DNA of 64,000 nt, taken from positions 1-64,000 of the forward strand of contig NZ_LMHZ01000067.1 in the NCBI RefSeq assembly GCF_001428545.1, written 5' to 3'. The notes under the pieces are model-generated. The model had not been told where the DNA came from, did not search any database, and saw nothing but the letters and a program-made list of their open reading frames with translations. The position numbers and the translations under genes are program-made. Position 1 is the first letter of the stretch. Every line of letters starts with the position of its first letter. This document shows positions 7,606-26,458 of this stretch, piece after piece. This DNA comes from Noviherbaspirillum sp. Root189 (GTDB lineage Bacteria; Pseudomonadota; Gammaproteobacteria; Burkholderiales; Burkholderiaceae_D).

Positions 7606-10010
7606 TCAGAGATGCAATAAAGCGATCGATTTCACGGAAATACATGCTGGCCGTGTTGATGACCACGTGTGCGGCGCTTTTCGTTACTGCCGCAGCCATG
7701 CTCGCGCTCGACATAAGAAACTACCAGACCACCTGGGTTGCCGACCTGACCGCGCAAGCCGACATTCTTGCGCAGGTTAGCCTTCCCACCCTGGAATTCA
7801 ATGATCCCAAGGCAGCGAAGGAAAACCTTGAACAGCTCAAGGCCCGCCCCAGGATTTACGCCGCCGCGGTGTACCAGACGGATGGGACCTTATTTGCGAC
7901 CTACGTAAAGAGTCCTGCCATTGATATGCGTTTCCCGAGGACGCCTGGCGGCAGTGGGTATGTCATTGACAAGAGCAAGCTCGAAGTCTTCAAAACCATC
8001 GAGCGCAATGGTGAAGCCGTAGGCGCTGTGTACATTGGCACGGAGTATCCTCTGGAGGCACAGATCAAGCGCTACGTGAAGGTATTGGCAGTCGTCATTG
8101 CAGGCAGCCTGTTTGTTGCGCTGCTGGTGTCCACGTGGCTGCAAATGGCTATCACCAAGCCGATTCTGGCGGTGACCGATGCAGTGAACCAAGTCATCGC
8201 CAAGCGCGACTTCTCCAAGCGCGTGCGCAAGACGACAGAGGATGAAATCGGCGTTCTGGTCGATGCCTTCAACAGCATGCTCGCCGAGGTAGGTGACCGC
8301 TCACAGGCCCTTGAGGCCTCCAATAAAGCACTCCAGCATGCGATGAGCGAGCGTCAAGGTGCAGAAGACGCCTTGCGGCTACTGAACAATACCTTGGAAG
8401 AACGCATTGTCGAGCGTACAGCGGAATTGGAAAAGGCCCATGAGCAGCTGCGCCAGTCACAGAAACTGGAAGCGGTCGGTCAGCTCACTGGCGGCGTCGC
8501 ACACGACTTCAACAACGTGTTGCAGGTCATTACCGGCAACCTTCAGTTGATGCAGATGAGCTTTGCGGGAAATCCGGAAGCGCAACGGCGGCTTGAAAGC
8601 GCGGCATTCGCGGCGGACCGCGGGGCCAAGCTTTCCTCCCAGTTGCTGGCCTTTGCCCGTCGCCAGCCTCTGCAGCCGGTCGCCACCAATCTTACCCGCA
8701 TCTTGCGCGGAATGGATGATTTGCTCCGTCGTGCGCTGGGTGAATCCGTGCAGGTAGAAACCGTCGTGGCAGGAGGCCTCTGGACCACCCTGGTCGATCC
8801 CCACCAGCTCGAAAACGTCATACTCAACCTGGCTATCAACGCCCGTGATGCAATGAAGGGGGAAGGGAAGCTGACGCTGGAATTGGGGAACGCGATGCTG
8901 GACGATAATTACGTGGCGTCGGAACCGGGAGTCACCGCCGGGCAGTATGTGATGCTGGCCATTTCTGATACTGGATCAGGCATGCCGCCCGAAGTCATGG
9001 CCCGTGCGTTCGAGCCATTCTTTACGACCAAGCGCGAAGGCGAAGGAACCGGTCTCGGCTTAAGTATGGCGTACGGCTTTGTCAAACAAAGTCATGGCCA
9101 TATCCGGATGTATAGCGAGCTAGGAAGCGGCACGACCATCAAGATCTACCTGCCACGTTCGATGCAGCCGGAAGTCGAGATCAATAATGTGCGCAGCGAA
9201 CCGGTTGTCGGAGGGGCGGAAACCATTCTCGTCGTTGAAGACGACACCATTGTGCAGACCACGGTGATAGACATGCTGTCCGGCTTGGGCTATCGCGTGC
9301 TGAAAGCAAATGATGGCCAGAGTGCCCTGAACATCCTTCAAAGCGGTATCCCGGTAGACTTGCTGTTCACCGACGTGGTGATGCCCGGCCCGGTTCGCAG
9401 CGTCGACGTGGCAAGACAGGCGAAGCAACTTTTCCCCGGGATTGAAGTTTTGTTTACATCAGGGTATACGCAAAACGCCATTGTGCATGGCGGCCGCCTG
9501 GACCCCGGCGTCGAACTGATCAGCAAGCCCTACCGCCGTGAAGAACTGGCACGAAAGGTGCGGCAGATGTTCGCGCGTAAGAAGCCCGGCGCAGCCATCA
9601 CGGACACCGGGAACGTTGCTGGTAACGCCATTGCTGGTCTAACTAAAAACATCCCGTTACTTATCCTCGTGGTTGAAGATGACGCGGATGCGCGAACGCT
9701 GCTGAGCGAATTGCTGGAAATCCTCGGTCACCAGGTAAGCGTGGCATCCAGTGCAGAAGAAGCCCTTGATATGCTTGAGACAGCCACCTATCACGTTCTC
9801 CTGACAGACATCAATTTGCCCGGTATGTCCGGACTTGCTCTCGCACGTCATGTAGTTAACCAAGAACTGAGCCTTAAGATCATCTTCTCGTCAGGATATG
9901 GGACAGTTCCGCTACACGACTTCGAACATCCGTTCAGCGTATTGCCAAAGCCGTTTAATCTGAAACAGCTGCAACGGACGCTTGGCGAAGTGAGCGCGTC
10001 CTTGTGTTAA
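7602..10010 (+). CDS. Hybrid sensor histidine kinase with two receiver domains
   Basis: 802 residues in the inner membrane. A first helix (about 17-37), a periplasmic sensor of the CHASE8-like type (about 40-150) and a second helix (about 155-180) lead into a HAMP linker. A coiled coil (about 235-290) follows, then a HisKA domain with His301 in GGVAHDFNN, and an HATPase with N box NLAINARDAM, DTGSGMPPEV and GEGTGLGLSMAYGF. Receiver 1 has phospho-Asp 591 (TDVVMPG) and receiver 2 has Asp 736 (TDINLPGMSG), both with downstream Lys (SKPY, PKPF). There is no DNA-binding output, so the output partner must be encoded elsewhere. The HDFNN box places it with hybrid kinases of the NtrB-like HisKA class. 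Confidence 0.93.
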   Translation: MIRDAIKRSISRKYMLAVLMTTCAALFVTAAAMLALDIRNYQTTWVADLTAQADILAQVSLPTLEFNDPKAAKENLEQLKARPRIYAAAVYQTDGTLFATYVKSPAIDMRFPRTPGGSGYVIDKSKLEVFKTIERNGEAVGAVYIGTEYPLEAQIKRYVKVLAVVIAGSLFVALLVSTWLQMAITKPILAVTDAVNQVIAKRDFSKRVRKTTEDEIGVLVDAFNSMLAEVGDRSQALEASNKALQHAMSERQGAEDALRLLNNTLEERIVERTAELEKAHEQLRQSQKLEAVGQLTGGVAHDFNNVLQVITGNLQLMQMSFAGNPEAQRRLESAAFAADRGAKLSSQLLAFARRQPLQPVATNLTRILRGMDDLLRRALGESVQVETVVAGGLWTTLVDPHQLENVILNLAINARDAMKGEGKLTLELGNAMLDDNYVASEPGVTAGQYVMLAISDTGSGMPPEVMARAFEPFFTTKREGEGTGLGLSMAYGFVKQSHGHIRMYSELGSGTTIKIYLPRSMQPEVEINNVRSEPVVGGAETILVVEDDTIVQTTVIDMLSGLGYRVLKANDGQSALNILQSGIPVDLLFTDVVMPGPVRSVDVARQAKQLFPGIEVLFTSGYTQNAIVHGGRLDPGVELISKPYRREELARKVRQMFARKKPGAAITDTGNVAGNAIAGLTKNIPLLILVVEDDADARTLLSELLEILGHQVSVASSAEEALDMLETATYHVLLTDINLPGMSGLALARHVVNQELSLKIIFSSGYGTVPLHDFEHPFSVLPKPFNLKQLQRTLGEVSASLC

Positions 10011-21180: not shown

Positions 21181-22506
21181 TTATTTAGCCGTAGATGGCG
21201 CAACGCGCCACACCGCGTTGCCCACATCATCGGCGACCAGAACAGCGCCTTCTTTGTCGACCACGACACCCACCGGTCGTCCTAGCGCATCGCCGTCCTT
21301 GCTTAGAAATCCGGTCAGGAAATCGCTGGGCATGCCCGATGGCTTACCGTCGGTGAATGGAACAAAGACGACCTTATATCCGCTGCGTGGCTCGCGGTTC
21401 CATGAACCGTGTTGCCCGATGAACGCTCCGCCCCGATATTCCCTGGGAAAAAGCCTGCCTTCATAGAAGGCAAGGCCAAGCGACGCAGTGTGGGAGCCGA
21501 GCGCGTATTCCGGCACAATCGCCTTTGCAACCATATCGGGCTTTGTGTCCTTCACCCGGGCATCGACATGCTGGCCATAATAACTGTACGGCCAGCCATA
21601 GAAGCCACCGTCCTTCACGGACGTCATGTAGTCGGGAACAAGGTCATTGCCGAGCTCATCGCGTTCATTGACGGTCGTCCATAAGAGTTTGCTTTTTGGC
21701 TCCCAGGCCAGGCCGTTCGGATTACGTAATCCTGAGGCAAACACGCGCGACTTGCCGGTTGCCAGATCGACTTCCAGAATGGCCGCTCTGTTCTCTTCCT
21801 TATCGAGGCCGTTCTCACCTACGTTGCTATTGGACCCGACTGTCGCATATAAATGCTTGCCGTCCAGGCTGGGAATGATGTTCTTGGTCCAGTGGTGATT
21901 GATCGGTCCGGCCGGCAAATCCGCCACCTTGCTACCCTTGGCAGTAATCTCGGTTGAGCCCTGTTTGTAAGGAAAGCGCATGATCGCATCGGTATTTGCG
22001 ACGTACAAATTGTCGCCGACCAGCGCCATGCCGAAAGGTGAGTTCAAGTCTTTAAGCATGACGGTACGGGTATCGGCTACGCCGTCGCCATTGGTATCCC
22101 GCAGCAAAGTAATCCTGTTGGCACTCGGTGCCCTGCCGGAGCCTGCTTTCTTCATCACGCCTTTCATGATCAGGCCCTTGATACCTTTGCCATCTTCAGG
22201 CTTGGGCGGAGCATCCGATTCCGCCACCAGTATGTCGTTGTTCGGCAATACATATAGCCAGCGCGGATGATCGAGATCGACCGCAAATGCGGACACGCTG
22301 AACCCGTCCGGCGCAGTAGGTTTTACGCCGCTCGGCCATCCTTTTGCCGGTGCGATATTGACGGTGGGAACAAGGCTTTTTTCGGGCGCCGGTAACTTGG
22401 GGGTTGGTCCCATGCCCGCTTCGGGAGGCAGTGCTTGCTGGTCGGCGAGCGCGCAGGACACCAGTAAAGTTGTCAGCGCGGTGGTGACAACGAAGGGCAT
22501 ACGCAT
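21181..22506 (-). CDS. Secreted PQQ-type sorbosone dehydrogenase-like protein
   Basis: 441 residues: signal sequence ([18 protein letters not shown], with a Cys that could serve as a lipobox) then a six-bladed propeller of the glucose/sorbosone dehydrogenase family. Typical motifs: [76 protein letters not shown] and [23 protein letters not shown]. Such proteins oxidise sugars or related compounds with PQQ, though many have no proven activity. ATG 22506 follows AGGAG. A second, larger propeller protein is encoded at 24053. Confidence 0.9.
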
Positions 22507-22560
22507 GTTGATCTCCTGAAGAGGTGTGGTGAACGGTGAGCGGAGTTCTCTAAGTTTCAA

Positions 22561-22995: not shown

Positions 22996-23457
22996 ATGAA
23001 CAATCTGAAGAATAGTGCTTTCAAGAATAGTGCCCGCCTTATCGCCGTCGCCAGCCTGGCTATCCTGATGACAGGCTGCGGAATGATGGAGAAGGTAGGT
23101 CTTGGAGGGTCTAAGCCGACAACCACCACCTTGAGCGGTGCCAATGAAGTTCCTGCAGTGACAACGAAGGCATCTGGAAAAAGCACGATTACCGTGGCCG
23201 ATGACAGAACCGTCAGCGGGTCCGTCATCATCGACGACATGGTGGCAACGGCCGCGCATATTCACCGTGGCGCGTCCGGGCAAAACGGCCCGGTCATGAT
23301 CCCTTTGTCAAAAACCTCGGACAAGGTGTTTTCCGTCCCGGCCAATACCAGATTGACGGATGCGCAATACGCTGACTACAAGGCCGGTAACTTATATGTG
23401 AACGTGCATAGCACGGCGCATCCCGCCGGGGAAATCCGGGTGCAGTTAAAACCATGA
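22996..23457 (+). CDS. CHRD-domain lipoprotein
   Basis: 153 residues with a lipobox LMTGC (Cys about 27) and a single CHRD domain. Landmarks are LSGANEVPAVTTKASGKSTITVADDRTVSGSVII, the metal-like AAHIHRGASGQNGPVMIPL and LYVNVHSTAHPAGEIRVQL. CHRD domains bind or stabilise extracellular partners in chordin and occur in bacterial envelope proteins of unknown task. The gene ends 2 nt before the convergent protease gene. Confidence 0.9.
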   Translation: MNNLKNSAFKNSARLIAVASLAILMTGCGMMEKVGLGGSKPTTTTLSGANEVPAVTTKASGKSTITVADDRTVSGSVIIDDMVATAAHIHRGASGQNGPVMIPLSKTSDKVFSVPANTRLTDAQYADYKAGNLYVNVHSTAHPAGEIRVQLKP

Positions 23458-23459
23458 AG

Positions 23460-23942
23460 TTATGGGCCGGTTGTGCCGGCATAAATGAACACGGCGTTAT
23501 AAAAGCAGTGGAGCACGGTTGCGGAATAAATATGCTGATGCCGTTCACGGAAAAAGCCAAACGCTAACGATGGTGCCATGACGGCAAGCGCCCATGGGAC
23601 AGGTTGATGCACCAGATGGGCAATGCAGAATGCGAGGGTCGTCACCATGTTGGCCAGCGACACTCCGCGGAGCACATATCGATGGTGAAAAATCCGGCCA
23701 AGATGACCTTGCAAAAAGCCACGGAAAAAGAGTTCTTCAGCCAGAGGCTGAATGAAAATCATCGACGCAAGCAACGAGAAAGACAGTGGGAGCCCATGCC
23801 GCCATGTCGGCCAGGCTAAATGAACTGCCCAAAGAAATAAGGGCCCGGCCAGGAATGCCGCATGAAATAAACGATCCTTTAAGAAGCCGGTCCGGAATTG
23901 CAGACCGAATTCTTTGATAGCAAGGGCGGTGGCGGTGTGCAT
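23460..23942 (-). CDS. CPBP-type glutamic intramembrane protease, MrtJ-like (JDVT-CTERM system)
   Basis: 160 residues, mostly membrane helices. CPBP/Abi catalytic motifs are in order: EELFFRG (Glu-Glu-x3-Arg), CIAHLVHQ (His) and LHCFYNAVF (His-x3-Asn). This is shorter than general CPBP proteins and fits the dedicated proteases that process C-terminal sorting signals. Its upstream neighbour on the same strand encodes a protein ending in just such a signal (Gly-rich stretch, invariant Cys, hydrophobic helix, Arg cluster), so I assign it as the cognate JDVT-CTERM protease. The 110-nt gap suggests one operon. The start ATG 23942 has no clear SD. Confidence 0.82.
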   Translation of the reverse strand: MHTATALAIKEFGLQFRTGFLKDRLFHAAFLAGPLFLWAVHLAWPTWRHGLPLSFSLLASMIFIQPLAEELFFRGFLQGHLGRIFHHRYVLRGVSLANMVTTLAFCIAHLVHQPVPWALAVMAPSLAFGFFRERHQHIYSATVLHCFYNAVFIYAGTTGP

Positions 23943-24052
23943 GGATCAGTCGGAGGGAAGGAGATGCGCCCATGTTCCCGGCGCAGTCCTTTCTCCAGGG
24001 TGGAAGATACCGGAGCAAGAACGCGCTGGGTAATCTACATCGTTAACAGGGT

Positions 24053-26458
24053 CTACCTGACGCTCTTGCGACGCCGCCAGACCACCGAAGCCAACGCAGC
24101 CAAAATCAAGCCTGGCAGTGTCGGATCGAAAGTGCCATCCGGCCGCATTGAACACCCGCCGCCACCCGCGCCAAGCGGCGATGGATTCGGGGTTTCAGTT
24201 GAAGGCGTGGTTGGAGGCGTGGTAGAAGGCGGCGGTGCCGGTGTGGGCACTGGGCAGCCGCTGACTCGGGCACCGGCCCAGTTTGCAATGTCCAGGGTAT
24301 TACCGTCGCCACCGTCATTGACGAGCAGTCGCAATTCCTTTACGCCGGCAATGCTGAGCTTCACTGTTTTTCGCAAGTCGGTGCCACGCATTACACCGCT
24401 GTCGAACGCGACTTGGCCATCGAGCAGGACTTGGAACGCGACGCTGCCAGCACCCTGTGCAATGTCGTCGATGCCTACGTCTGCCAGAAAGTGCCCGGTA
24501 CAGGTGCCACCAAGGTCGTAACGGATATCCGACGGGGCGTGCACGCCTATGCCTTTTGCATAGGGAATGCGTCCGAGGGAGATGGTGCTGCCATCGCCTG
24601 CGGCGGCTTCGCCGTTATTCATGTTGAGTTCAATCGGACCCTCGCCGTTGCGCGGAGTCCCGACTGGATTGAGCTCACTAAGCTGACCAAAGGGATACAC
24701 ATCCCGGAACACTGTTTCAGCCTGGCCAGCCGCATCCTTGACCGTGAGATAAAGCCTGAACCAGGTATTCGGCGCATCGGCCTCAAACCCCGGGACGATA
24801 ACGGAACCACTCGACTGTCCAGTCGTCTCGGCCATAAATGGATGCGAATGGGTATCGTGCATGAAGTCGATACGCCAGGTAAAGGCACTCGCTGGCAGGG
24901 TACCATCTTCCGCGTCGGTGGCGGTGCCGCTGTACGTTACCGTATCCCCGGCGTTAAAACCCGCGCCGGCGGCAGGAGTGGTAATGGAAGGTACCGGAAA
25001 TCTGTTGCTGGTGATCGTCAGAACCGCAGGAGCGGATGTTGCTGTCCCGAACGAATTAGTCGTCACTGCTGTGTAGATTGCCTGGTTGTCTGCAGCGGTG
25101 GTCTGGGGAATCGTGTACGAAGTTGATGTCGCGCCAGGTATGGCAACGCCGTTTCGCTGCCACTGGATGCTTGTGGCGTCAGTAGCTGCGACCGTGAAGG
25201 TAATCGGGTCCCCAAGAAATACTGTGCGCGACTGCGGGCTCTGTGTGATGCGCGGAACCTGCGAATTGGTGAAGACAATCTTGCTGACAGACCCGACATC
25301 TGCGGAGTCCCCGACGTTCTGATTTCTCGCGAGGTAATAGACGCTTCCGTCAGCCGCAACGGCCAGGTTGACCGGATTCGCGATGTCGCTGACAAAATCT
25401 GCCGCAACCGTGGGATTTGCGGGATCAAGCGTACGGATTGTTCCATTGCAAAAATCGGCAAACAGATACTTACCCGTGAACGATGCGGGAAACTGCGTGT
25501 TCAGCGGGTTGTAGAAAGCGCCGCCCGTGATTGCGCATCCAGTGGTATGCGAATAAGAAAACACCGCATTGGTATAGCGCGGATCGTTGTTATCTCCTTC
25601 ATAAGCTGGCCAGCCATAGTTCACCGCTGGTTGCCCGCGATTGATCTCTTCCCAGGTTCCTGCCCCGACATCGTTGATGTACATGAGGCCGGTGCCGGGC
25701 TGGATATCAAATGCAAACGGATTCCGCAACCCGAGATTATAGTTGTAGGAATAGGCGCCGGCGGTATTGATATAGGGGTTATCTGGCGGCACCGTGCCGT
25801 CCGGATTCAACCGCAGAATCTTGCCGAAGGGGTTGGCAAGATTTTGAGAATTGGAAGTTTCGACCGGCTCGCGTAAATCCTCTTGCCCGCCTACCGCGAC
25901 ATACAATTTGCCGTCAGGTCCAAAACGCAACGCGCCGCCCATGTGCCATTGCACACCTGCCGGTACATTCGGTAAGCGCAGGATCAACTGTTCGCTGCCG
26001 GGGACGGCGACGTCATTGGATTCGGTAACGCGAAAGATGCGATTGTGGCTCGTTGCGCCTTCTTTCACGGTGCAATATATGTAGAGGTAATGGTTAGTCG
26101 CAAATCCGGGATCGGCAGTGATGCCCAGGCACCCACGTTCAGAAAACGAGTCGACATTAGGAACGGCATAAAAATTTCCCGGAAGAAGCGCGTCATTCTT
26201 GATCGTTCTTATGATGCCGTTCTGTTGCACGACCAGAACGCGGCCATCCGGAAGTATGGTCATTGACGTGGGACTGTTTAATCCGGTGGCAATCAGGCGA
26301 TCGGCAAACCCGACGGGCACATTGGCGGCATGTACGTTGCCCAGGCACACCAATGATGCCGACGCAAACGCGGCTACTTGAATTGTGCGTACTACCCGAG
26401 CCAGAATAGAACGCGTTCTGTCATTTGACAGCTGAGTCCAACACACTCCAGTCATCAC
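24053..26458 (-). CDS. Secreted PQQ-dependent sugar dehydrogenase-like protein with JDVT-CTERM anchor
   Basis: 801 residues, modular. Signal peptide (VAAFASASLVCLGNVHA), then a glucose/sorbosone dehydrogenase propeller (about 45-390: PDGRVLVVQQNG, HMGGALRFGPDGKLYVAVGGQ, LGLRNPFAFDIQPGTGLMYINDVG, NYGWPAYEGD). An Ig-like domain (about 395-485: ITQSPQSRTVFLGDPITFTVAA), a PKD/Ig-like domain (about 490-590) and an NPCBM-like carbohydrate-binding domain (about 615-745: IPYAKGIGVHAPSDIRYDLGGTCTGHFLADVGID) follow. A Pro/Thr linker leads to the C-terminal GGGGCSMRPDGTFDPTLPG, hydrophobic helix and RRRKSVR. That tail is a JDVT-CTERM-type sorting signal, predicted to be cut and anchored at the Cys by the protease encoded next. 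Confidence 0.9.
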   Translation of the reverse strand: MMTGVCWTQLSNDRTRSILARVVRTIQVAAFASASLVCLGNVHAANVPVGFADRLIATGLNSPTSMTILPDGRVLVVQQNGIIRTIKNDALLPGNFYAVPNVDSFSERGCLGITADPGFATNHYLYIYCTVKEGATSHNRIFRVTESNDVAVPGSEQLILRLPNVPAGVQWHMGGALRFGPDGKLYVAVGGQEDLREPVETSNSQNLANPFGKILRLNPDGTVPPDNPYINTAGAYSYNYNLGLRNPFAFDIQPGTGLMYINDVGAGTWEEINRGQPAVNYGWPAYEGDNNDPRYTNAVFSYSHTTGCAITGGAFYNPLNTQFPASFTGKYLFADFCNGTIRTLDPANPTVAADFVSDIANPVNLAVAADGSVYYLARNQNVGDSADVGSVSKIVFTNSQVPRITQSPQSRTVFLGDPITFTVAATDATSIQWQRNGVAIPGATSTSYTIPQTTAADNQAIYTAVTTNSFGTATSAPAVLTITSNRFPVPSITTPAAGAGFNAGDTVTYSGTATDAEDGTLPASAFTWRIDFMHDTHSHPFMAETTGQSSGSVIVPGFEADAPNTWFRLYLTVKDAAGQAETVFRDVYPFGQLSELNPVGTPRNGEGPIELNMNNGEAAAGDGSTISLGRIPYAKGIGVHAPSDIRYDLGGTCTGHFLADVGIDDIAQGAGSVAFQVLLDGQVAFDSGVMRGTDLRKTVKLSIAGVKELRLLVNDGGDGNTLDIANWAGARVSGCPVPTPAPPPSTTPPTTPSTETPNPSPLGAGGGGCSMRPDGTFDPTLPGLILAALASVVWRRRKSVR

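Follow-up and report, generated by a model that had tools for sequence, protein, structure and literature searches.

Two adjacent genes on the minus strand of the window—the whole stretch of 64,000 nucleotides analyzed here, from contig NZ_LMHZ01000067.1 of Noviherbaspirillum sp. Root189—are best read, with a probability of about 0.8, as a JDVT-CTERM/MrtJ pair that is dedicated to C-terminal sorting and would act via lipidation of the target and a cut by MrtJ. The target gene (24,053–26,458) encodes a predicted secreted protein with a C-terminal sorting tail and is followed, after a gap of 110 bases between its stop and the next start (23,943–24,052), by mrtJ (23,460–23,942), which encodes a CPBP glutamic intramembrane protease of 160 amino acids. 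Both open reading frames lie where the initial annotation had placed them, and its assignment to JDVT-CTERM/MrtJ was borne out by the profile searches described below. The two-gene neighborhood of JDVT-CTERM (NF033191) and MrtJ (NF033192) is already in print: it stems from the in silico study by Haft, reference 16 in PMC11980579. Hence, the pair in the window is a further example of a described arrangement. The pair agrees with that description in both model matches, in adjacency, and in having a single target, and no essential difference was found, the GSDH–Ig–NPCBM body of the target being one of several bodies. What the present analysis adds comes from relatives—the joint absence of tail and protease, the embedding of mrtJ in a gsp operon, and an OmpA-linked form of the locus.

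The C terminus of the target scores 54.7 bits against the JDVT-CTERM model (cut-off 27), whereby the whole profile (1–35) aligns to residues 764–798 (24,065–24,169, minus strand; residue numbers refer to the 801-amino-acid frame). With an E value of 6.9e-15, a chance tail was rejected. All of the C-terminal features claimed for this protein are present, namely GGGGCS with the Cys at position 769, DPT at 778–780 (within FDPT), a hydrophobic stretch, and RRR at 795–797, which together give the Gly-rich signature with Cys, the hydrophobic helix, and the basic end of such tails. The Cys is invariant across an alignment of 26 tails, all of which had been chosen as Cys-bearing, so that this invariance arises partly by construction. 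At the N terminus, inspection by eye reveals a hydrophobic stretch from residue 26 followed by VHA-AN, a candidate signal peptide. The length of 801 residues given earlier is correct for the frame opened by the GTG at 26,458; the ATG at 26,455 is the likelier start because it has a ribosome site, AAAGG, six bases upstream, and the protein then comprises 800 amino acids.

The protease reaches 118 bits against the MrtJ model (cut-off 75; profile 1–97 of 98), and the other CPBP models listed—myxosortase core, MrtP, MrtC, MrtX, MrtS, and others—remain below their own cut-offs, on which basis a general-purpose CPBP protease was rejected; the general Rce1-like family of Pfam is also matched over its cut-off. 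The motifs expected of it, EExxxR, His, and HxxxN, are found as EELFFR (69–74), H109, and HCFYN (145–149). E69, E70, F73, R74, G75, F105, H109, H145, and N149 are invariant in 24 aligned CPBP sequences (alignment A2), 23 of which were drawn from the 57 loci among the matches listed, these matches being mostly distant CPBP proteins. The predicted model of MrtJ (mean pLDDT 89.7, pTM 0.81) has its best solved match in Rce1 (4cad) with a Z of 8.3—a modest value for a helical membrane protein—over 136 residues at an rmsd of 4.3, the next row being at 5.5, in a re-scoring of 365 chains ranked by Foldseek. This suggests an Rce1-like fold. On the sequence level, a four-member MrtJ profile gave no match among solved structures at E 1. 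Upstream of the mrtJ start at 23,942 there is no clear ribosome site; nevertheless, the N terminus aligns with those of relatives.

In the proposed mechanism, the target would be exported by Sec via its N-terminal signal peptide, and its C-terminal helix would keep it in the inner membrane, the Arg cluster pointing into the cell. A host enzyme—Lgt or similar—would then attach a lipid to Cys769, which lies at the helix's outer face, and a cut by MrtJ just beyond the Cys would remove the helix, so that the protein would presumably come to lie at the cell surface. Cleavage at Cys769 and lipid attachment are plausible by analogy to MrtX of Myxococcus xanthus, which, according to PMC11980579, is responsible for the cleavage and surface anchoring of TraA and needs the Cys in the tail, the lipid being still a prediction there as well. 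No experimental study of MrtJ was found in the literature searched. An unlikely alternative is that no lipidation precedes the cut of the tail by MrtJ and that the target is set free instead of anchored, as in a timed-release secretion pair. The acylating enzyme can be named only as a candidate, and PMC11980579 describes the TraA tail as being processed by MrtX in Escherichia coli, with its authors leaving cleavage without modification possible. On the contrary, the requirement of the Cys for MrtX cleavage in that text, the Cys shared by all 26 aligned tails within the limits of their selection, and the predicted Rce1-like fold, which suggests a lipidated Cys as substrate, argue for lipidation preceding the cut.

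The comparison with known sorting systems points in several directions. GlyGly-CTERM/rhombosortase and PEP-CTERM/exosortase share with the present pair a tail, a helix, a basic end, and a dedicated membrane protease. GlyGly-CTERM and PEP-CTERM tails are not known to have an invariant Cys. According to PMC11980579, rhombosortase belongs to the serine proteases and exosortase to the cysteine proteases. A Cys-bearing tripartite tail together with a CPBP glutamic protease is common to MYXO-CTERM/MrtX and the pair described here; nevertheless, the MrtX model gives our MrtJ 49.7 bits, far below its cut-off of 180, and 35 MYXO-CTERM proteins are reported for an M. xanthus strain (PMC11980579) versus the one target found here.

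The body of the target is built from a GSDH β-propeller domain (residues 60–380; 25,319–26,281), an Ig domain (402–468), a Big_7 domain (488–519), and a sugar-binding-type NPCBM domain (593–732; 24,263–24,682) according to Pfam, which agrees with the propeller and NPCBM-like domains of the initial annotation. The more specific designation as a sugar oxidase holds up in part: the GSDH domain is clear with 169.3 bits (cut-off 25), but the model of the PQQ-dependent glucose/sorbosone dehydrogenase subfamily (TIGR03606) yields 95.8 bits, far below its cut-off of 434.55, and enzyme activity is hence putative only. Solved relatives of the GSDH domain comprise the putative oxidoreductases 2ism and 3das, the glucose/sorbosone dehydrogenase 2g8s, and soluble PQQ glucose dehydrogenase. 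The His of QWHMGG is aligned in all five solved relatives shown and the RNP of GLRNP in four of them (3das being the exception), whereby four of these alignments do not extend to the last blades; we take both to be residues with a catalytic role in PQQ sugar dehydrogenases. In some relatives, domains of the NPCBM type are sugar binders, and sequence matches of this domain were found as well. The target is probably a sugar-acting protein with a predicted surface location. Full-length orthologues of its body occur twice among 60 relatives. The first (G031, 64% identity) carries a JDVT tail and has mrtJ 25 bases downstream. In the second (G056, 60% identity), the tail is absent and the protein runs on into a different C-terminal region, and the genome has neither a tail by profile A3 nor an MrtJ over cut-off: in this one case, the same cargo is found without the tail and without the protease together.

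The genome of the strain, a draft of 6.15 Mb in 90 contigs with a completeness of 100, encodes one protein of the Pfam CPBP family. One tail over cut-off was found with the NCBIfam JDVT-CTERM model among 67 scored candidates, the second-best match having an E value of 0.291 and covering part of the tail, and one tail at E 0.01 was found among 105 candidates with profile A3, which consists of 26 tails (23 of the 26 in the profile used on the mrtJ loci below, with L134, L039, and L041 dropped, plus L159, L161, and L167). Hence, for the models used and in this draft genome, the pairing is one to one, and several targets in the genome were rejected. The single-target pairing proposed earlier is thus right for this strain and does not extend to a rule, since at least 13 of the 42 tail-bearing genomes of the class sample have 2 to 6 tails over cut-off. 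One genome (G204) bears at least six JDVT tails over cut-off, one of them in a frame of 3869 codons, and one MrtJ. A PEP-CTERM search of the own genome gave no match and neither did its controls, which makes that search uninformative.

Within the genus, only the own genome out of 15 (own included) has the intact pair; 13 are without MrtJ over cut-off and one (G010) bears remnants. There, at about 7929–9158 of locus L160, the target survives as a stub, its tail 70% identical, and is followed by an mrtJ broken by stops—the genome scored over the MrtJ cut-off via two pieces in one frame—and tblastn did not find the GSDH part of the target at this locus. A syntenic relationship of the two loci was rejected, as blastn at E 1e-5 gave no match between the 19-kb stretch of G010 and the window. 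This distribution, together with the lack of a clear ribosome site ahead of mrtJ, could mean that the pair was acquired and is now in decay, contributing little in its own strain; the open and full-length frames of both genes, the intact catalytic residues and tail, and the 64% identity to the body of the G031 protein make such a decay quite improbable. The GC3 values of target and mrtJ are 0.61 and 0.56 and those of five neighboring genes 0.63–0.65, a dip too slight to claim a recent acquisition.

Across the class, tail and protease occur together. Among 369 genomes, MrtJ is over cut-off in 53, the tail in 42, and both in 40 (Fisher p 1e-39, which overstates the evidence because the genomes are related and the Fisher test assumes independence); the tail counts are lower bounds, since for most genomes the scoring covered the best 20 candidates. 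Counted by family, a tail over cut-off occurs in 29, and in 28 of these MrtJ is over cut-off as well. Two genomes (G185 and G395) show tails over cut-off with MrtJ not over cut-off. In the other direction, the NCBIfam model finds no tail over cut-off in 13 of the 53 MrtJ genomes; among these 13, G062 and G264 give matches below cut-off. Profile A3 detects a tail in seven of these 13: G062, G085, G147 (weakly), G181, G243, G264, and G412, the match in G085 being partly by construction as its own tail is among the training tails. Six of the 53 are hence still without a tail by either model. The same profile found a tail in none of 20 MrtJ-negative genomes, from which G185 and G395—chosen as tail-positive—were left out.

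Among 59 fetched mrtJ loci (own pair excluded; L214 and L215 below the MrtJ cut-off; L160 a remnant), a tail-bearing open reading frame lies within the fetched stretch in 23, and the absence of a tail from a locus means little because several stretches end at contig ends. The training tails of the profile used lie in 9 of these 23 loci, the other 14 being outside the training set. In 21 cases, the tail-bearing frame precedes mrtJ on its strand, and in the other two it lies on the opposite one; 12 of the 21 are directly adjacent, with gaps of −115 to 180 bases when longest-frame starts are used and the G010 remnant included, eight are one gene away, and one is two kilobases away. Same-strand gaps of merely −4 to 4 bases occur in four loci (L167, L190, L197, and L209). 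Further adjacent targets differ in their bodies: of nine analyzed with Pfam, four are S8 subtilases, one is a GSDH–NPCBM protein, and four match no family at E 1e-4. That the tail is a membrane anchor only and the neighboring CPBP protein has another job, such as one of the general CPBP roles, is very improbable in view of these near-zero gaps, the presence of MrtJ in 40 of 42 tail genomes, and the joint absence in G056, even if JDVT-tail cleavage is a prediction and 13 MrtJ genomes are without an over-cut-off tail.

The gene found between target and mrtJ in relatives encodes an OmpA-family outer-membrane barrel (one member scanned: Pfam OmpA 88 bits, OMP_b-brl 67.8 bits). By phmmer, 12 of the 59 loci have a relative of this barrel gene as the immediate same-strand neighbor ahead of mrtJ (L165, L171, L178, L180, L181, L183, L184, L188, L192, L199, L200, and L203), and a JDVT-tagged protein precedes the barrel in eight of them, which are all eight loci with the target one gene away. 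PMC11980579 describes TraA/TraB and MXAN_5598 of M. xanthus, where a tagged surface protein is paired with an outer-membrane barrel bearing an OmpA domain; the likeness to the loci of relatives is one of layout only, and the barrel-containing arrangement is absent from the window.

Two of the 59 loci, which both come from the taxonomic order of the window, have mrtJ embedded in a type II secretion operon, in the stretch from gspF to gspG. In the first (L157, genome G048), the order is gspC-like, gspD, E, F, mrtJ, gspG, H, I, J, with gspF (515 bits, cut-off 424) and gspG (194 bits, cut-off 88.85) flanking mrtJ; gspD, gspE, gspH, gspI, gspJ, and gspL are over their cut-offs and the gspC-like gene is below. 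The whole genome of G048 yields no JDVT tail by either model, despite the MrtJ in its gsp operon. In the second (L158, genome G050), a JDVT-tagged subtilase gene accompanies mrtJ: gspC-like, gspD, gspE, gspF, subtilase, mrtJ, gspG, gspH-like, and gspI, with gspK further on. Here, gspD, E, F, G, I, and K are over cut-off, the gspH-like gene reaches 79.2 versus 80, and the gspC-like gene is below the cut-offs. Over the class sample, 52 of 53 MrtJ genomes have gspG (E 1e-20) versus 191 of 316 others (p 1.2e-9, with related genomes treated as independent); the one MrtJ genome without gspG at this threshold is G160. In the own genome, gspG lies on a different contig and lgt is also present; the target might use type II secretion in its own strain, too. 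We tentatively suggest—as a somewhat less than even prospect—that MrtJ is a processing step of type II secretion: tagged proteins would be lipidated, cut, and passed to the secretion system; many lineages would have a three-part surface unit of tagged adhesin or enzyme, OmpA-type barrel, and mrtJ laid out like TraA/TraB; and the window would hold the smallest version, two genes whose cargo is a sugar-binding enzyme. No mention of MrtJ within a gsp operon was found in the literature searched, which was available in part and did not include the original Haft study, and the link is not claimed as unpublished.

A pair of one protease and one target comes close to the smallest test bed for Cys-type C-terminal sorting. 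It could serve questions on the lipid-adding enzyme, the position of the cut, and the crossing of the outer membrane; for the last of these, relatives point to a testable answer, since mrtJ—once with its target—lies inside a gsp operon. As a comparison from nature, the same cargo is available without a tail in G056.

Around the pair, the window contains a second gene for a GSDH/NHL-type propeller (21,181–22,560, minus strand), 1.5 kb from the target gene, whose product has a signal-like N terminus and no match to the JDVT-CTERM model. A promoter scan predicted one site versus a shuffle mean of 2.6, i.e., no excess, and a terminator scan eight versus 4.3. Next to mrtJ, a CHRD-domain protein with a lipoprotein-like N terminus (MTGCG) is encoded on the plus strand (22,996–23,457), convergent with mrtJ and ending two bases from it, and a terminator-like site on the minus strand (23,338–23,319) lies within this gene, about 120 bases past the mrtJ stop.
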